Positions 27,202-35,418 of a DNA stretch of 64,000 nucleotides are shown here, in pieces; positions within the stretch are counted from its first letter, which is position 1; each line of letters starts with the position of its first letter. The notes beneath the pieces are model-generated. The model was not told the DNA's origin. It saw only the letters and a program-made list of their open reading frames with translations, and made no database searches. Origin of the DNA: Flavobacterium lacustre. Its GTDB lineage: Bacteria > Bacteroidota > Bacteroidia > Flavobacteriales > Flavobacteriaceae. Where the stretch lies: assembly GCF_027474525.2 (NCBI RefSeq), contig NZ_CP114882.2, positions 1,860,001-1,924,000 on the forward strand, in the 5' to 3' direction. The translations under genes and the position numbers were made by a program.

Positions 27202-30200
27202 TTATGGTATAATGATTTTTTTATTAACAACTCCTTTTGATGTTTTAATTTTAGCAATATAAACACCAGCACTATATCCTTTAATGGTTAGTTGAATGTT
27301 TTGTTGGTCTTGATTATCTACTTCCCAAGTACCTGTAGACTGACCATTAATATTATATAAAGTTACTTTTTCGACAGGTGTATCTAAAATGGTATTGTTA
27401 ATAGTAAGCACTTTCGAGTTTTGAGCATACGCTACTTTTATTTCATTAGAAGTTACCTCTTCCTCGCCAATTCCTAAAGTTTTATCAGTAAAACGAAGAG
27501 AGAAACGGGTTTTGTTTTCTCCTCGTGGAAGTACAACTTCATAAGGTTCCGTGCGAATGTCATGATATGTTTTGGTTTCGTCATCATAAAGGAAAACTAC
27601 TTGATTTTCATCAAAGTTTTCTAAACCATCGATTATAAAACTTACAGTTCCTTCTGTATTGTTTTTTACACCAATAGGATAGGAGGCTTCTTTATTGAAA
27701 TAGCCTTCCCCTTCAATAATTAATTTATTGGTTCCGTTAACCAAATACATATCATTGACTACATTATCAATGTTTTTGGCATCGTATCCATCATTAAATT
27801 CACTATTCGCTTTGTCTTCCATAAAAGCTAATACTACTTGTCTGTGAAAGATTTGATTGTAATTATTGAAGCCTAAACGGATTCTTTTATATGTATCTTT
27901 TTCAACAGGTTCTTCATTACTACTGGTCCAGTGTGCTGATTCTTTTGGTTTTGCCGGTATACGGTATAAACTTTGAGAGCCAGTTGGATTATGCTCTTTG
28001 ACAAAAGCTCTTTGACTATTTCTGAAAGTAACAGAACTTTGGGCACCAACGCCATTATCTTTACCTACTACAAAAAAACCTTGTCCCACAGGGATGTACT
28101 GGTTTGGCGCATTTTTTAACGATGTACCAGTACCACTAATAAACTTAACACCAAGAGAGCTTGGACCAACACTTCCGGAAAAATTTTTAACGGCGTAACC
28201 GCCTTGGTACTCTGCTAGATTATGGGAATTATTGGTTTGATAATGCTCCCAGAAATATAATGTTCCAGTAATTGAGGAACTATTGTCAGTGATGAATTGA
28301 TTTGCGTCAATAGCGGAAGCATATGGATTTCCGGTTAATAATAATTGTTTTGATCCAACCGTATTGCTTATTGTCCCGTTATTAGGTTTTCCTATAAAAG
28401 TTAAATTTTGTGTTCCGGATACTCCTGCTCCTTTAAGCGTGAATCCTTTTCCTGGATCTAACAATCCTGTTTCGTTAATTGCTGTCCAGTTGGCATATGC
28501 GTTTCCTAAATTATCAAATTTATATATCCAATAACGCGCTAAGCTAAACGGACTTAATGCGCCATCATATCCGCCAATCCAAGTTATAGGTCCTGGGCTT
28601 GAAGGATTTGTTCCGTCTCGTAAAATACTATCTACAGTGTATGGATTATTGTTTGACGCATTGTTTACAGGGCCTACAGGCGAACTCCAATAGTTGTAAT
28701 TAAACTTGTTGGCTTGACCTTGTTGGTCTCTTTTGATAGATCCTGCACTTGACGTATCTAAATCACTTCCTTCTGTTTGAACTAATTGTGATCTTCCCAC
28801 CAAATCAATTGTTCCGTCTAGTTTCAAATAATGGGTTACTTCAATTTTGGACCCATCAGTTTGTAACCCTGAGGTAGTTGTAGCGGTAAGTTTGCTTCCT
28901 GTTACAACCCCTACATAAAGTCCTAATACGGTTTTATCTCCTTGCGAAGTAATATTGTGAGTTATTTTTACAATATTCCAGTCAATGGTTTTACTTGCAT
29001 CTTCAATAGATTTACTATAAGGTAAATCTTGTACGGTATTGTTCATCCATGAAGTTGCGGTTTGCCACAATCCATCAGCTGCTGATTCATACGGTAGCGG
29101 AGCTGTTTGTCTGTCTACTGTAGTTAAGTTTCTTAGCGCTGCTGTAAAGTTATTATCCGAAATATCTTTTGCGTTTGTGTACGTATAGGTTGACATCGGG
29201 TAATAAGCACTTAGTTTATTCCATTGTATACTGCTAATGTCATTTAATGTGATGATACCAGGAATAATGCTTCCGTTTGTCAGAGTACCATTTTTTTGAA
29301 TTTCCTGATTTATCACATAACGGAATTGGGCTTCACTTAGGGCTACATCCCATACTCGAACTTCATCTATTGAACCATTAAATAAAGCGGTTGGATTTAC
29401 TCCGTCTGCAGCAGCAATCAAGAATGATTGGGTTGTTGAAGGCACATTAGGCATGCTAGCACTTACATTTGTTATACCATCTATATACATTTTTGCAGTT
29501 GTTCCATTATAGATTACCCCTATGTGATGCCATGTTCCTACCGGGATTACAGCGCTAGAAGTAATGGTGTGTTTTGTTGATCCTACCATCCAGCTCATCT
29601 CCGCTTTTCCGGCGGCATTAATACCTAAATCGTAACCTTCTGAAAAACCACTGTTTCTTTTTGAAAGTATAGTTTTATCAGTGCTATTTCTATTTACCCA
29701 AGCCGAAACCGTAAAGGCAGTATTTAAATTTAATACTTTACCGGCATCCAGATAATCATCTGTGCCATCAAATTTGATGCAACGTTCAAATGTTTTTTCT
29801 GGTGCAAAACCAAAAGTGATGTATTTTGTACCGTCAAAATCATAGGTCGTTTCCAGATTGGCTCCGTTTGCTTTCATTACTCGATATTCCGCAGTCGGAT
29901 CGAAATTAGGGGTACTTGATATAAACATTAAGTAATCTCCCGGGGGTGTCAGTGTTGCAGATAGCATAGTAGTAGGGATTGATACCTTTGTTGTAGGTAT
30001 GTTTCCACCTGTTTCCACTATTTTCCAAGTTCGTCCTACAGATATAAAACTTACCTCACTTACCAATGTGCTTGGCGAAGTTATTCCGGAACTTATGTTT
30101 ACTATAACTGCAGGCTGTGCAGCAAGTGTACCATGATTATTACCCCATACTAAGAATTTTTTATCTGTATCAAAGGTATTAGGGTTGGCAGTATTTGTTG

Positions 30201-33200
30201 TGTAAATATCTGTTAGTCCTATGGTTATGTCATCTGTAGTGTTGATTGATTTTGATTGTTTTTGATTTAATTTTGAGATGTCATCTCTACCGATACCGGC
30301 AATGTCAAAGTTAAAAACATCATTAGCTGTTATTCCAGTATTTCTGTTCCAAATAGTATTTCCATCAGAATTTGTGTAATTGATGGATGTACCATTAACA
30401 CCTAATGTGATTCCGTATTTTATTGCCAAATAACTTTGAATATTACTTCTTTGTGCATCAGTTGCACGGGTATCTAAAGTGATGATTTCAGCTACTCTAC
30501 CATCTAAACTACCATCCCATCCTTCGCTACGACCAATCCAATATTGGCTGTTTGTAACAGTTGCAAAACTTCCTGAATCTGATACAGAAGTGGTTAATGC
30601 ATTTGCGTTAAAGCTAAGGTTAGTGCCGTTACCTGCTGCATTATTACTTGCGTTTATGATTCCCGCTGTTGAATAACTTATATTTGTGCCTATCTGTGCA
30701 ACTCCGTAGCCATTACCCGGTCCGTTAGTCGTTCCTACTGCATAGGTCAATACCTCGTTAGTAAATCGGTTTGTGTATGCTCCATAACCAATTCCAGTTC
30801 CATCAGTTTCGTTTGTGCTTGAATTTCGATCTCCACAAAAGATATCATTACTTGCTGTTGCAGAGGTCATTGTTGCATCGGGTAACACTACGGCAAATAT
30901 ATCTCTGCTATAAAATCCTGAAGCTCCTTTCAAGTATTGTCTATTAGGATCATTATCTGTGTATACTTGTGGTGAAGTAGTATAATTATTTGTAAAATCA
31001 ACAACTGCATTAAAGTTGATGTTTGCTGTAGCATTGTTTTTATAAACAGGAGCACCAACGGCAGCTGGTTTTATGGCATTTGATCCTTTAGCTTGTGTGT
31101 TCCAAGTTGAAACGGCTGTATTGTCTGCAATGCTGGTTGTACCGTTAAGTAAATCAGCACGAAGCCATAATTGTAAAGGGGTTATAACACCACCAGGCCC
31201 TTTTGTAAGTGTTGTGTCTCCATTTCCTCTAATTGAAAAATTATACGGATTTTCGTCACTGTCATCATTTGCAATATTTATGACAGCATCCCTTGTTCCA
31301 GTACCAGACGGAGTAAAGGTTACTGTAAAAGTAGTGCTGCTTGCGCTTGCTACGGTGGCATTAGGCGCTATGGATACGCTAAAATCAGTACTATTAGCAC
31401 CAGTAAATGTTATAGCGCCCACTGCTAATGGACCTGGTCCTGTATTTTCTATGGTAAAAGTGCTTGTCTTCCCTACGCCAATTGCTGTTGAGCCAATATC
31501 GGTAAAGTCTGATGTACTTGGTGAATTATCACCATCACTAATAGTATTTGTACCTCCTTTAACGTTAATTTCAGGAGCTGGAGGCGCTGTATAGACTACT
31601 GTTATTTCGGCAAAACTTGCCGTACAAGGGGCATTGGTAATGGTCCAGCGCAATACTTGTGTTCCGTATGCAGTTACGGTAGCGGTTGAAGAACCAGCGT
31701 TAATAGCACTAAAAGAAACAGAGCCAGGTCCGGATGTTCTAGACCAAGTTCCTGTACCTGTGATTGGGGTATTTCCTCCTAAAGCATTTGAAACTAATCC
31801 TATGACAGATTGATTACTTCCTACTGTAGCCGTAGTTGGGGGTATATTTACCTCTTGTGTTTTTGAGGCCGTAGTTGTCCCACAAGAACCTCCTGTTGTG
31901 GTTAAGACTAGTGTAGCAGTTCCTGTGAAACCGGCTGGAGGAGTCCAGGTTGCTGTATTTGGTGTTGATCCTCCGTTGTTGTTAAATGTTCCTCCTGAAG
32001 TAGTTGACCAAGTTGCACCTGTTGCACTTCCTCCAAATAATCCGCCTAATGCTGCTGTAGTTCCTCCTTGGCAAATTGCTGCCAGAACACTACCTGCATT
32101 AGCAGTAGGTTCTTGAATGACTTGTGTTTTTGATGCCGTTGCTGCTGTACAAGATCCGCCTGCAGTAGTTAAAACTAAAGTAGCTGTTCCTGTAAAACCA
32201 GCTGGCGGTGTCCAGGTTGCCGTTCCTGGTGAATTTCCTGTATTGTTTGCAAATGTACCTCCTGAGGTTGTTGACCAAGTGGCACTTGTAGCAGCCCCAC
32301 CAAAAGAACCTCCTAGTCCTTCTGATGTTTCTCCTTGACAAATAGCTGTGAGTGCGCTTCCTGCATTGGCAGTAGGAGCAAGGTTTACAATTTGTGTTTT
32401 TGAGTCAGTTACTGTTCCGCAAGATCCGCCTGCAGTAGTTAAAACTAAAGTAGCTGTTCCTGTAAAGCCAGCTGGTGGTGTCCATGTTGCTGTTCCTGGT
32501 GTACTTCCTGTATTGTTTGCAAAAGATCCTCCTGAACCTGTCGACCATGTTGCGCTTGTAGCACCACCTCCATAAGTACCTCCTAAAGCAGCTGTAGTTC
32601 CTCCTTGACAAATGGCTGTAAGAGCAGTTCCTATAGTAATAGTTGGGTTTGCATTAACCACTTGTGTTTTTGATGCCGTTGCTGCTGTACAAGATCCACC
32701 TGTAGTAGTTAAAACTAAAGTAGCTGTTCCTGTAAAACTAGCCGGTGGTGTCCAGGTTGCTGCTCCCGGTGAATTTCCTGTATTGTTTGCAAATGTACCT
32801 CCTGCGGTTGTTGACCAAGTGGCACTTGTAGCAGCCCCACCAAAAGAACCTCCTAAAGCAGCTGTAGTTCCTCCTTGACAAATAGCCGTGAGTGCGCTTC
32901 CTGCATTGGCTGTTGGTAATGAGTTAACCGTTATGGTTGCAGTGTTCAATACACTAATGCTTGAACTACACCCACTTTTTGTTAAGTTGGTTATGGTAAT
33001 GCCTGTTGGGCCACTGTTGGCTATTGTGGCAGTAGTGAATGAACCTGTGCCAGCTGTGCTTACTGTCATTGAAGCTGTAAGGCCTGTAGCAGCATTTGGT
33101 GCTCCCAGATCATAAGTAACGGTGTATGTACCAGTAGGCAAATTGGCAGCAAGACCAGTAAGGTTGATTGTAGCGGTAGTTCCTGCACAAATAGCGGAAC

Positions 33201-33978
33201 TTGCTGCTGTAGATGATAAAATATATGTCGTACATGGTACTACTACCCAACTCAATATTACTTGGCCGTTTCCTCCTGATTTAGAACTTCCTCCTGCTTC
33301 ACCACGTCCACCGCCACCAGCACCTATGCCACCAGCACCAGCATCTGGCGAACCGTCAGCTGCACCTCCAACTCCACCAGTACCGTAGCCCGTTCCAGCA
33401 GTTCCTCCCTGTGTATTACCACCATTGCCGCCATTAACACCATTAGCTAATGTTGTAGCAGAGCCACCACCACCACCACCACCTTCATTATCACCACCAC
33501 CATTATTACTTCCTCTTGCATTTCCACCATTACCACCGGCAAAAGAGCTGGTAATAAAACCTGCTATTGTAGATGCTGCCCCTCCATTACCTCCAGTTCT
33601 ACCTGTTGAACTAGCCCCGCCATTGGCTGTGATGGTAGGTGTAGTGTTAATGGTAATTGTAGTGTTTTGTCCTGTAACACCTGCTGTTCCTCCTGCTCCA
33701 ACGAATATTGTTAGTATATCCCCAGCTGTAAGTCCTGTAATAGTTCCTCCTGCAAAAGCACCACCACCACCACCAGCTGCTGCTCCATTTCTATTAGAAC
33801 CACCACCACCAGCTCCCCAAGACTGAAATGTAATACTTGTTACTCCTGCAGGAACGGTAAAAGTAGATGTTCCAGATGTTGAATAGGTTTGTGGCGAGGT
33901 TTGTGAAAACCCGATAAAACCGAGAAAAAAGAAAAGTAATGTAAATAAGAATTTTGTTGGGGGCGTAGTTTTGTGCAT
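27202..33978 (-). CDS. Giant T9SS surface protein with four tandem Ig-like repeats
   Basis: The start is set at 33978, where MHKTTPPTKFLFTLLFFFLG begins a normal signal peptide; an in-frame ATG at 34056 adds 26 residues and would spoil it. The mature protein (2258 residues in all) has a Gly-rich domain (about 33-243), an Ig-like region and then four near-identical repeats of 89-90 residues (about 348-706). A choice-of-anchor-D domain (about 800-926), a DUF8202-like domain (about 927-1310), LamG (about 1393-1560), the C-terminal region shared with the 1729-residue neighbour and a type A sorting domain complete it. It is inferred to be a T9SS-exported surface adhesin. Confidence 0.88.
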   Translation of the reverse strand: MHKTTPPTKFLFTLLFFFLGFIGFSQTSPQTYSTSGTSTFTVPAGVTSITFQSWGAGGGGSNRNGAAAGGGGGAFAGGTITGLTAGDILTIFVGAGGTAGVTGQNTTITINTTPTITANGGASSTGRTGGNGGAASTIAGFITSSFAGGNGGNARGSNNGGGDNEGGGGGGGSATTLANGVNGGNGGNTQGGTAGTGYGTGGVGGAADGSPDAGAGGIGAGGGGRGEAGGSSKSGGNGQVILSWVVVPCTTYILSSTAASSAICAGTTATINLTGLAANLPTGTYTVTYDLGAPNAATGLTASMTVSTAGTGSFTTATIANSGPTGITITNLTKSGCSSSISVLNTATITVNSLPTANAGSALTAICQGGTTAALGGSFGGAATSATWSTTAGGTFANNTGNSPGAATWTPPASFTGTATLVLTTTGGSCTAATASKTQVVNANPTITIGTALTAICQGGTTAALGGTYGGGATSATWSTGSGGSFANNTGSTPGTATWTPPAGFTGTATLVLTTAGGSCGTVTDSKTQIVNLAPTANAGSALTAICQGETSEGLGGSFGGAATSATWSTTSGGTFANNTGNSPGTATWTPPAGFTGTATLVLTTAGGSCTAATASKTQVIQEPTANAGSVLAAICQGGTTAALGGLFGGSATGATWSTTSGGTFNNNGGSTPNTATWTPPAGFTGTATLVLTTTGGSCGTTTASKTQEVNIPPTTATVGSNQSVIGLVSNALGGNTPITGTGTWSRTSGPGSVSFSAINAGSSTATVTAYGTQVLRWTITNAPCTASFAEITVVYTAPPAPEINVKGGTNTISDGDNSPSTSDFTDIGSTAIGVGKTSTFTIENTGPGPLAVGAITFTGANSTDFSVSIAPNATVASASSTTFTVTFTPSGTGTRDAVINIANDDSDENPYNFSIRGNGDTTLTKGPGGVITPLQLWLRADLLNGTTSIADNTAVSTWNTQAKGSNAIKPAAVGAPVYKNNATANINFNAVVDFTNNYTTSPQVYTDNDPNRQYLKGASGFYSRDIFAVVLPDATMTSATASNDIFCGDRNSSTNETDGTGIGYGAYTNRFTNEVLTYAVGTTNGPGNGYGVAQIGTNISYSTAGIINASNNAAGNGTNLSFNANALTTSVSDSGSFATVTNSQYWIGRSEGWDGSLDGRVAEIITLDTRATDAQRSNIQSYLAIKYGITLGVNGTSINYTNSDGNTIWNRNTGITANDVFNFDIAGIGRDDISKLNQKQSKSINTTDDITIGLTDIYTTNTANPNTFDTDKKFLVWGNNHGTLAAQPAVIVNISSGITSPSTLVSEVSFISVGRTWKIVETGGNIPTTKVSIPTTMLSATLTPPGDYLMFISSTPNFDPTAEYRVMKANGANLETTYDFDGTKYITFGFAPEKTFERCIKFDGTDDYLDAGKVLNLNTAFTVSAWVNRNSTDKTILSKRNSGFSEGYDLGINAAGKAEMSWMVGSTKHTITSSAVIPVGTWHHIGVIYNGTTAKMYIDGITNVSASMPNVPSTTQSFLIAAADGVNPTALFNGSIDEVRVWDVALSEAQFRYVINQEIQKNGTLTNGSIIPGIITLNDISSIQWNKLSAYYPMSTYTYTNAKDISDNNFTAALRNLTTVDRQTAPLPYESAADGLWQTATSWMNNTVQDLPYSKSIEDASKTIDWNIVKITHNITSQGDKTVLGLYVGVVTGSKLTATTTSGLQTDGSKIEVTHYLKLDGTIDLVGRSQLVQTEGSDLDTSSAGSIKRDQQGQANKFNYNYWSSPVGPVNNASNNNPYTVDSILRDGTNPSSPGPITWIGGYDGALSPFSLARYWIYKFDNLGNAYANWTAINETGLLDPGKGFTLKGAGVSGTQNLTFIGKPNNGTISNTVGSKQLLLTGNPYASAIDANQFITDNSSSITGTLYFWEHYQTNNSHNLAEYQGGYAVKNFSGSVGPSSLGVKFISGTGTSLKNAPNQYIPVGQGFFVVGKDNGVGAQSSVTFRNSQRAFVKEHNPTGSQSLYRIPAKPKESAHWTSSNEEPVEKDTYKRIRLGFNNYNQIFHRQVVLAFMEDKANSEFNDGYDAKNIDNVVNDMYLVNGTNKLIIEGEGYFNKEASYPIGVKNNTEGTVSFIIDGLENFDENQVVFLYDDETKTYHDIRTEPYEVVLPRGENKTRFSLRFTDKTLGIGEEEVTSNEIKVAYAQNSKVLTINNTILDTPVEKVTLYNINGQSTGTWEVDNQDQQNIQLTIKGYSAGVYIAKIKTSKGVVNKKIIIP
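31860..32935 (-). repeat. Four tandem 267-270 bp coding repeats
   Basis: The landmark CTCCTTG recurs at 32064, 32331, 32601 and 32871, giving periods of 267, 270 and 270 bases. The units encode the ICQGG...TWTPPAGFTGTATLVLTT domain and are close enough at DNA level for copy-number change by recombination. Confidence 0.9.
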
Positions 33979-34551
33979 GTTTTTTTGTCGTATTGGGGCA
34001 AATATTTTTTTGGGGGCTATATCGCTTTTAAATGTATAAGGAACGTGTTGTATCAACTAAATCTATTGAATTGGTTTCTTGTGCGTTAGTACGTAATAAA
34101 AGCCAATTTTTTCATGCGCCAAATATAATTTTTTTTCTATAAAAAAACATAATTTTTAGTTTAAATTACTTTTTTTATCGACAAAGTGTTTGTTTTTATC
34201 GATTAAATGTAATTAATTCTAGATTGTTTGTTTTTTTATAAGAGGCTTTTTAGTGAGAAGTGAGTGGTGAAAAGTGAAAGGTGAGAGATGTCTATGGTTT
34301 TGGGCTTTTTTTAGGTGATTTGATGATGGAGCAAAAGGGAATGTATTTTATTTTTTAATTTTATATTGATGATTGTTAGGTAATTGAAATTTATTTTTGC
34401 TTTGTTTTCAATTATTTTTATCCAAATGAGGTTTTCCGTAAAGAACATTTTAACAAGATTTTTAGTTTTGGTTTTTATTAACGTTAAAATCTGTATTTAT
34501 GGAACAAAGGATTTCTCCATTCAATCGGGGTCCCACCTGATTTTGCTCAAT
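33979..34551. other. AT-rich gap upstream of the giant gene
   Basis: Apart from a -7 box at 34120 and a degenerate GTGAGAAGTGAGTGG-type heptad stretch at about 34253-34290, I see nothing coding here. Confidence 0.55.
34120..34127 (-). promoter_or_regulatory. Candidate -7 element of the 2258-aa protein gene
   Basis: TATATTTG on the minus strand fits the consensus and would give a leader of roughly 135 bases to the start at 33978. Confidence 0.4.
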
Positions 34552-34740
34552 AACCTAAAATTTTACCCCATAGGACGTAAAATTTTGCGTTCGGAACCTA
34601 AAATTTTAGGCTCGAGACGTAAAATTTTACCCCTTGACACGTAAAATTTTAGGTTGGTTACTTAAAATTTTACCCCCAGTGACGTAAAATTTTACGTCTG
34701 GAACCTAAAATCTTCGGTCGTTGACCTAAACGTTTAGGTT
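34552..34740. repeat. Nine-unit phased array of TAAAATTTTA palindromes
   Basis: Cores start at 34556, 34578, 34599, 34620, 34642, 34663, 34685, 34706 and 34727, so the steps are 22, 21, 21, 22, 21, 22, 21 and 21 bases, two helical turns each. Six cores are exact TAAAATTTTA; the second ends in G, the eighth is TAAAATCTTC and the last is TAAACGTTTA. Flanks alternate between CC/GG and CG, so several units are perfect 14-18 base palindromes. The array ends 60 bases before the start of the gene at 34800. A4T4 tracts in phase with the helix are known to bend DNA. Confidence 0.95.
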
Positions 34741-34799: not shown

Positions 34800-35303
34800 A
34801 TGTCATTAACTAATTTAGGACGATTACACCTTACTGCTGTTCAGAAAACAGCCATCGATGCGGCTTTGACTGCTATTGAAACTCAATTGCTAACGGTAAC
34901 AGTAAATCTTACTGCCGAGGACCGTCAGAAATACGGAAGTATCAACGAAACTAACAAGCTTTTTGTGAACAAGGATCGCGAATTTTTTCAAACACAACCT
35001 TCCTTAATTTCTTCGGATGTAGACTGGGTAGAGTTTGAAGCTGATTTTCAGGACAGGACTTTTGCGGACACGCGATTAGACCGTGTGGCTACAATTACCC
35101 GATTGTTGAGTGATTTTAAAATCGTACATGATTATGATAATTACCAAGACAGCTTGACCGATTATGATTACAGCAAATACAAAGCTGGGACTAAAACTCC
35201 GGGATATACCGAAAAGGTTGCTGAGCTGAAACAGTTTTTTCCAAATACCGGTGGCGGTTCTGCAACTCAACCCGTTGCTGAGAAAGTGCAGGAAGCGGAA
35301 TAG
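34800..35303 (+). CDS. Protein of unknown function downstream of the palindrome array
   Basis: The 167-residue protein is soluble, with no signal peptide or membrane segment, and predicted mostly helical: LTAVQKTAIDAALTAIETQL at 11-30, then an acidic middle with FVNKDREFFQTQP near 55-67 and a Tyr/Asp-rich patch DYDNYQDSLTDYDYSKYK at about 115-132, ending in a Gly/Ser-rich tail. I do not recognise its family. The coding frame is clean and begins 60 bases after the phased array, so the array probably acts as its upstream region. The isolated position between two T9SS genes on the other strand suggests a stand-alone unit. Confidence 0.75.
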   Translation: MSLTNLGRLHLTAVQKTAIDAALTAIETQLLTVTVNLTAEDRQKYGSINETNKLFVNKDREFFQTQPSLISSDVDWVEFEADFQDRTFADTRLDRVATITRLLSDFKIVHDYDNYQDSLTDYDYSKYKAGTKTPGYTEKVAELKQFFPNTGGGSATQPVAEKVQEAE

Positions 35304-35318: not shown

Positions 35319-35418
35319 GGTGAATAGTGAATAGTGAATAGTGAATAGTGAAAGGTGAATCGTGAGTAGTGAGTAGTGAAAGGTGAATGGTGAGTAGTTA
35401 ATCGTGAATCGTGAATGG
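35319..35418. repeat. GTGAATA heptad repeat tract
   Basis: About fourteen imperfect copies of GTGAATA/GTGAGTA in tandem follow the gene at 34800. A degenerate copy lies at about 34253-34290, on the other side of the palindrome array and gene. Such seven-base tracts are common between genes in Flavobacterium. Confidence 0.85.

Follow-up and report, generated by a model that had tools for sequence, protein, structure and literature searches.

A two-turn-phased array of palindromic units beside a small helical protein gene in Flavobacterium lacustre: candidate halves of a chromosomal module of Bacteroidota

The stretch analysed here, referred to as the window, comprises 64,000 nucleotides of the Flavobacterium lacustre contig NZ_CP114882.2 (positions 1,860,001 to 1,924,000, forward strand) and carries nine TAAAATTTTA-type cores at 34556–34736, six of them exact, which follow one another at steps of 22, 21, 21, 22, 21, 22, 21 and 21 bp (Table 1). 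The array ends at 34740, and the ATG of the neighbouring gene, at 34800, starts 60 bp past it. This array is far beyond chance: the best 7-unit chain in the window scores 69 of 70, as against a maximum of 47 in 60 first-order Markov copies of the window. Across the whole window TAAAATTTTA-type 10-mers are ordinary (27 seen versus 27.35 expected with at most one mismatch), and what is unusual in the array is clustering and phase, not the frequency of the 10-mer. A first-pass annotation of the window had reported nine cores, six of them exact, at 21- or 22-base steps, and is borne out in this by the core positions and the Markov comparison; the limits that it drew for the array, 34552 to 34740, coincide with the RAC-N12-GTY unit frame derived below, and its view that the array exceeds simple duplication is supported. 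The longer perfect palindromes that it saw formed by several flanks are present in some units only, the palindrome arms of units 1–7 being uneven (5, 4, 7, 6, 5, 5 and 9 bases). Two further repeats were seen in the vicinity, namely a GTGAATA 7-bp tandem repeat of about 14 copies directly 3' of the gene (35320-35416) and 270-bp tandem repeats (31855-32907) within a 2284-aa surface-protein-like ORF on the minus strand (27202-34056).

Table 1. Positions of the array, its cores and the adjacent gene in the window
Feature	Position	Strand	Remarks
Array of nine 18-bp units	34552..34740		RAC-N-10-bp core-N-GTY consensus; units vary individually; 21/22-bp steps
Motif CAATAACC at gene-distal array end	34548-34555		Also in gene arrays of NRK F7, J27 and F. 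profundi
Core 1	34556..34565		Exact TAAAATTTTA
Core 2	34578..34587		TAAAATTTTG, ends in G
Core 3	34599..34608		Exact TAAAATTTTA
Core 4	34620..34629		Exact TAAAATTTTA
Core 5	34642..34651		Exact TAAAATTTTA
Core 6	34663..34672		Exact TAAAATTTTA
Core 7	34685..34694		Exact TAAAATTTTA; centre of 18-bp perfect palindrome
Core 8	34706..34715		Degenerate, TAAAATCTTC
Core 9	34727..34736		TAAACGTTTA; RAC/GTY flanks
Array-associated family gene	34800..35303	+	167 aa, pI 4.8; all-helical AlphaFold2 model (pLDDT 88)

For the 167-aa protein encoded beside the array, searches of Pfam, PHROGs, NCBIfam, PADLOC and the sequences of solved structures gave nothing significant; no Pfam family was reached at E 0.1 (MerR_2 alone appeared, at 0.12). 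Our alignment A1 holds 54 of the 82 family proteins at hand, and the weak Pfam matches of 54 members bear unrelated names, the commonest among the 25 of 52 families listed being DUF6730 (15 of 54, best E 0.0035). One member was run against PHROGs and six against NCBIfam and PADLOC; in PADLOC the only matches were weak ones to Avs1c, from two of the six (E 0.00098 and 0.011). The AlphaFold2 model of the window protein includes one helix of 55 residues, and a fold search with it returned no confident relative and no recognised DNA-binding fold. The best-conserved polar positions include N52, K53, N57, K58, D82, R86, H110, D111, D113 and N114. The family is acidic (median pI 5.2 over 73 members); since the protein is acidic and its model is without a recognised DNA-binding fold, the occupant of the array may be another protein. 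Homologues are found at 80 loci of a species-genome scan, nearly all of them Bacteroidota by title (one is labelled Pyrinomonadaceae), and within the genus a protein search places the gene, patchily, in 22 of 150 genomes.

The gene and phased arrays are linked. In a protein-only search of 150 genus genomes, for which 30 of the 37 listed protein matches were used, a phased array adjoins the gene at 23 of the 30 loci, downstream of it at 17 and upstream at 6, whereas none of 83 distal 500-bp control segments, 54 of which came from the window, has one. At the 77 usable loci of the species scan, mostly from other Bacteroidota, 35 have an array under thresholds set after earlier scoring on the same 77 loci, versus 4 of 735 distal segments, two of these four being one real array in L067. 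In both sets an array was called where a RAC/GTY chain of 28 or a palindrome chain of 31 lay within 500 bp of the gene; L071, L131 and L134, with broken or cut genes, were left out of the 77-locus counts, and the 30-locus set partly overlaps the 80-locus set (L157 is the locus of L027/L060, and L158 that of L063). Under this rule 7 of 30 loci in the genus set (L158, L170, L171, L175, L176, L183 and L184) and 42 of 77 in the wider set have no array; among the seven, L158 is cut off upstream by its contig, and L170 and L176 show visible rows below the threshold. Nineteen of the 23 arrays pass by the RAC/GTY chain, and those of a second protein subclade (the window genome's own paralogue L011, with L173, L174 and L182) pass by palindromes only, lie upstream of the gene and are AT-rich or of the CAAAGTTTTAG type. 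Moreover, in four Flavobacterium relatives (NRK F7, jejuense, J27 and profundi) an array with a window-type core stands about 100 bp upstream of the gene, and by eye many of 19 further loci (picked by score, own paralogue included) have another palindrome at the same pitch beside it. The first-pass annotation had proposed looking for the same gene family next to such arrays in relatives, and had named homologues lacking the array as evidence against its reading; the outcome, with arrays in the four Flavobacterium relatives and at 23 of 30 loci of the 150-genome set, was in its favour.

No other gene accompanies the pair in a general way. Apart from the family gene, none is common to the window neighbourhood and the 8.5-kb loci of the four relatives, and no cluster of neighbour genes within about 4 kb covers more than 21 of the 80 loci. 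At 17 loci a small helix-turn-helix gene recurs near the family gene; judged by title, the listed ones belong to Aquimarina or stand close to it. By eye, many Aquimarina loci (L091-L125) have the family gene near a small helix-turn-helix gene, with secretion-like or ATP-grasp-like genes at some of them; at many Aquimarina loci and in Labilibaculum, 21-bp or other repeats seen by eye near the gene are without the RAC-N12-GTY unit, and at L106, L111 and L124 the 21-bp Aquimarina repeats can be read as an open frame. Other observations concern single loci: an AT-rich 21-bp palindrome array of another class lies upstream of the second gene copy in the window genome (L013, 4570-4735), a 23-unit array lies 2.3 kb downstream of the gene in a Chitinophagales MAG with two family genes (L067, 6826-7305), and upstream of the arrays of L027 and L062 there is a stretch CCAACGCCCAACATCG, which by eye resembles an integron attC half-site.

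The consensus of 247 units, drawn from six genomes, is RAC-N-(10-bp core)-N-GTY, and successive units are separated by a spacer of 3 bp where the step is 21 bp and of 4 bp where it is 22 bp. Within the RAC-N12-GTY frame the core varies between loci (TAAAATTTTA in the window, GTGGTnnACCAC or GTCAAATTTGAC elsewhere). The definition of the unit came from the TAAAATTTTA arrays and from inspection by eye of 19 loci, and was then scored on the locus sets; a six-unit RAC-N12-GTY chain of at least 28 of 36 lies within 450 bp of the gene at 27 of 77 loci, as against 0.25% of 800 control segments. When the inner distance is set to 6, 7, 11 or 14, at least 28 is reached at 20, 19, 15 and 14 loci, respectively, and other distances give 0 to 9 (N12 gives the 27). 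Palindrome chains scored independently of the core also stand out next to the gene, chiefly at a pitch of 21 bp and at half and one and a half times that pitch. The two half-sites of a unit pair almost at random: in non-TAAAATTTTA arrays half-site identity within versus between units is 3.30 versus 3.20 of 6 (p 0.23) and 2.34 versus 2.25 (p 0.26), and the TAAAATTTTA class has a small excess within the unit (4.52 versus 4.27 of 6, p 0.005). Over the 247 units no dyad covariation was found at the base adjoining the core, the innermost spacer bases are anti-complementary, and the two central core bases covary (z 3.2). An RNA hairpin function would require the two halves of a unit to match each other, and the near-random pairing of half-sites therefore argues against RNA hairpins.

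Arrays also occur away from the gene. The window genome (G000), a single contig of 3.45 Mb, has 14 exact core pairs at the array pitch and none of the reversed pattern (41 versus 1 with a looser pair pattern), and contains six further intact arrays (L005, L006, L007, L008, L009 and L015) and two fragments (L014 and L016). All six intact gene-free arrays are intergenic relative to the longer listed open reading frames, L005 and L006 lying between convergent genes. L005, L006, L007 and the reversed L015 each have nine units in an identical order of 21- and 22-bp steps, with recognisably homologous spacers, and most copies in this genome have common ends (TAAGTAG on the left, GGTTATT on the right); the common step order, spacers and ends indicate that these four are mutual copies or come from a common source. 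More gene-free arrays are present in G060, F. jejuense, J27, F. profundi, G012 and G098. The TAAAATTTTA pair pattern matches 7 of 150 genus genomes and forms real arrays in five (G000, G060, G098, G148 and G009), all of them among the 22 that bear the gene, for which simple arithmetic gives a chance of about 5 in 100,000; in G064 and G072 the matches are single pairs that form no array, and the gene search found nothing there. Among relatives of G060, three have 14, 14 and 27 pairs and a fourth, a MAG, has one, and six more distant gene-bearing MAGs have none. In a family-wide sample that included two genomes of the genus, a strict 3-core pattern was found in 1 of 299 genomes, which is G000 itself.

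Among arrays with other cores, G012 has three gene-free GTGGT clusters besides the gene-linked one; counts of the GTGGT unit (three mismatches) against its reversed control (G012 51/74, G013 38/37, G002 18/17, G010 34/33, G111 12/36, G142 7/24, G011 12/33, G021 4/41) are never more than one above it, and the G012 arrays are clusters, not an excess. The GTCAAATTTGAC unit has 52 matches versus 2 reversed in G098 and 16 versus 3 in G088, and in two genomes without the gene 0 versus 8 and 2 versus 6. The core patterns used to find gene-free arrays in G012, G098 and G088 came from gene arrays of G012 and G098, so that the resemblance of these gene-free arrays to those gene arrays is partly built into the search; at two (L210 and L212) of the four places fetched in G088 the RAC/GTY chain gives no array. 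Five of the ten gene-free places fetched in G098 consist of a leader of about 280 bp and an array, and the same leader stands beside a gene-linked array. This leader (L195-L199 and L205) is conserved, non-coding and 5' of the arrays, and folds weakly: two-sided change is seen in 5 of its 76 predicted pairs, and the covariation term, at +3.31, is unfavourable. In G012 the gene-free copy L208 has 136 bp of flank in common with the gene-linked L209. When each of the 27 gene-free arrays was paired with its strict nearest neighbour, the partner came from the same genome in 15 cases (chance about 0.08); of the twelve misses, seven link G000 with G060, two genomes whose gene arrays fall in one core class, and the others are one in G009, two of the ten in G098 and two in G088, both gene-free arrays of G088 being closer to the gene array of G098 than to G088's own. 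Additionally, three gene-free arrays have in their vicinity a match to the Rfam Flavo-1 sRNA that exceeds the gathering score (L195 2140-2243, L199 2222-2322 and L206 3345-3421).

Selection on gene-free arrays in place is partly supported. Arrays stand at orthologous places in five species (L026, L188, L193, L185 and L030) and, in two further groups, in three (L028 (16675), L190 and L192; L025, L189 and L194). The L025 array is identical at 155/160 positions in both other species, versus 50/101 and 44/100 for the left 100 bp, 71/101 and 90/101 for the right 100 bp, and 58/157 and 51/198 for the next 150 bp. For L028/L192 the array has 136/160 and the flanks 48/123 and 45/109, and for L028/L190 the values are 156/160 versus 69/100 and 99/101. 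In the L026 group the arrays of jejuense and RU_4_13 (135/182 and 138/182) compare with flanks of 38 to 61%, and in J27 (99/182) and profundi (161/204) one flank is better in each. The gene-linked group (L027, L061, L062 and L068) has arrays at 102/181 to 125/181 (profundi/J27 109/159) and a gene-side flank at 86 to 97%. Counting whole-unit gains and losses, which keep the phase, as mismatches, the array beats both 100-bp flanks in only 7 of 16 species pairs (once with a margin of a single point), none of the 7 being among the 4 gene-linked pairs, and the proposition that arrays are generally better conserved than their flanks therefore fails.

Over 22 loci the similarity of the proteins is correlated with that of the arrays (r 0.47, p 0.0005), also when the second subclade and the window pair are left out (r 0.28, p 0.011); physical linkage could by itself produce such a correlation. 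Proteins that are 84-85% identical can have quite different arrays (similarity 0.12 for both L167/L169 and L163/L180), which indicates that the core is not dictated by the overall protein sequence. The predicted bend, too, differs between core classes. Over 105 bp, a full wedge model gives 152 degrees for the window array versus a background of 55 ± 18, and 135 for L202, 113 for L110, 85 for L077 and 53, the background level, for L209 (identical with array L164), the only array with a GTGGT core that was measured. A-tract wedges alone give 113 to 123 for TAAAATTTTA arrays and 75, 33, 47 and 27 for L202, L110, L077 and L209, respectively; against a background of 49 ± 16, the TAAAATTTTA arrays and L202 alone stand out.

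Taking these observations together, we suggest that the array is the DNA half, and the adjacent gene the other half, of a two-part chromosomal module of Bacteroidota in which the array would offer phased docking sites on double-stranded DNA, a reading to which we assign a probability of roughly 0.4. Each unit would be a target composed of two half-sites (RAC...GTY) on double-stranded DNA, and with units two helical turns apart all of them would lie on the same face of the helix, so that 6 to 20 or more units could receive a regular row of protein dimers. The likeliest occupant, we infer, is the family protein, alone or with a host partner. Gene-free arrays would then be additional docking sites, copied from gene-linked arrays, some of which may subsequently have been held in place by selection. 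The working mode may be somewhat like that of ParB-parS or Noc-NBS, in which one protein has several dispersed docking sites, with site sequences specific to the locus as in REPIN-RAYT. In the cell, docking might serve chromosome organisation or the control of neighbours, or might be part of a selfish system that spreads arrays. In a more specific version, the protein, small, helical and of a new family, would coat both its own phased array and gene-free copies that it has itself seeded, the sites being specific to genome and paralogue on a common RAC/GTY two-turn scaffold; this would be a new class of DNA-docking system, centromere-like, loop-forming or selfish and self-recognising, and we hold it as tentative and rather doubtful.

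Some of the same evidence would suit a mobile element: a REP- or MITE-like family would use the array as its substrate for transposition, its mobility factor would be encoded or recruited by the small gene, and gene-free arrays would be its non-autonomous copies. The dispersed G000 copies keep unit order and common ends, five of the ten gene-free copies in G098 share leader and array with a gene-linked copy, L208 shares its 136-bp flank with L209, the window and its relatives are without shared neighbours, and in several orthologous groups arrays change as fast as their flanks. We nevertheless consider mobility unlikely, given that no target duplications or long terminal inverted repeats are seen by eye in the copies printed, that the window protein has no transposase match, that the only Y1 transposase in G000 (PF01797, found once, at 3156349) lies far from any array and that arrays occupy orthologous places in up to five species, some far better conserved than their flanks. 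An operator or upstream activating platform for the adjacent gene, serving autoregulation or another regulator, is improbable. Phased dimer sites would suit a regulator, and the distance from array to ATG (60 bp in the window, about 100 bp in the four relatives) speaks for it too; however, the gene is followed, not preceded, by the array in 17 of the 23 cases detected, and gene-free arrays stand between unrelated genes, convergent ones in the case of L005 and L006. A gene-specific operator as the sole explanation was dropped in view of the mostly downstream arrays and the many gene-free ones, and the control of the adjacent gene proposed in the first-pass annotation is consequently not supported as a general mechanism. 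Its A4T4 core is not a general feature either, since other loci retain the pitch and the RAC/GTY flanks with other cores, and the curvature that it expected is predicted for the window array and is mixed in other core classes, down to background. Its multi-dimer protein-binding platform is the best reading of the array, with the family protein as the putative occupant.

That the array is transcribed and its repeats function as structured RNA, in the manner of type III toxin-antitoxin loci, is very unlikely in our judgement. A gene of about 160 aa does lie beside tandem repeats in a position that permits co-transcription, but half-sites pair nearly at random, core-adjoining bases are without covariation and the innermost bases of the spacer are anti-complementary; the pitch suits B-DNA, some arrays have no gene, the protein is all-helical and no toxin match was found in six members. 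A known RNA family was rejected, Rfam giving only sub-threshold matches on the array. The bends predicted for the window array, L202 and L110 are what an architectural element of intrinsically curved DNA, without a dedicated protein, would show; we regard this as highly improbable, as the GTGGT-core array measured stays at 53 degrees and bending does not need conserved RAC/GTY flanks. Most unlikely of all is neutral satellite drift, that is, tandem duplication without function, which would explain why units are gained and lost whole and why several orthologous arrays change as fast as their flanks, but not the linkage to one gene family, the unit grammar common to different cores or the strong conservation of some arrays. 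A phage or plasmid origin was also discarded, array and protein being without match and without a viral relative; among 16 viral-contig pair matches no array was longer than three units.

We now compare the two-part module with its nearest parallels. PMC3733652 describes REP/REPIN-RAYT systems (REPtrons) as one gene type with adjacent palindromic repeats and related dispersed intergenic repeats of differing sequences, and RAYTs as proteins with a catalytic tyrosine and an HUH domain that recognise single-stranded REP DNA. The loci described here likewise have palindromic repeats beside a gene and dispersed gene-free intergenic copies, and differ in their many-unit rows at a fixed two-turn pitch, in half-sites that pair almost at random and in the lack of a Y1 match, no Y1_Tnp being among the 25 listed of the 52 families that weakly match any of 54 members. 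Hairpin-arm covariation, a REP/RAYT feature, was not found, the central two core bases alone covarying. In the ParB-parS and SopB-sopC centromere arrays, tandem dyad sites on double-stranded DNA serve a dimeric protein (sopC repeats are 43 bp). Our unit grammar and half-site behaviour fit tandem dyad sites, to which a protein would bind here as well; however, presence is patchy (22/150 genus genomes), no ParA-like partner is among the 14 neighbour clusters listed (within about 4 kb, 80 loci), and neither Pfam (E 0.1) nor NCBIfam (E 1) assigns the window protein a ParB domain or another known domain that binds centromeres. Noc/NBS, SlmA/SBS and MatP/matS combine one protein with several dispersed chromosomal palindromes, which are single sites of one sequence; several dispersed chromosomal palindromic sites, putatively with a single cognate protein, occur here too, but as phased rows whose core differs between loci. 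In type III toxin-antitoxin systems (ToxIN) a small protein gene stands beside a tandem repeat block, and ToxN is beta-rich. Here a small protein gene also adjoins tandem repeats, whereas these are not RNA-pair-like, most arrays lie downstream (17/23), gene-free arrays occur, the model is all-helical and the search for a ToxN-like endoribonuclease gave weak PADLOC Avs1c matches only (two of 6 members). As in phased A-tract curved DNA (PMC3940949), the window array has A4T4 in helical phase and is predicted to be curved, but the other core classes do not retain A-tract cores, and one of these classes is predicted to be unbent. Finally, CRISPR arrays alternate one constant repeat with spacers that are unrelated, next to cas genes; the spacers here have 3-4 bp, and no cas genes are among the 14 neighbour clusters listed.

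By analogy, the module may share the logic of dispersed cognate sites with REP/RAYT and ParABS. It lacks testable defining features of REP/RAYT, ParABS, type III toxin-antitoxin and CRISPR systems, and full-text literature searches listed no description of it; its function may yet prove familiar. For a protein family without a significant database assignment, the phased array is a genomic partner and the first functional handle. The diverged pairs of protein and site, if they are indeed paired, would constitute a natural series for studying how DNA specificity evolves, and the role of non-coding arrays in the chromosomes of Bacteroidota becomes directly testable. If the arrays are docking sites, they would represent an overlooked part of chromosome organisation, or of the biology of selfish elements, in this phylum.
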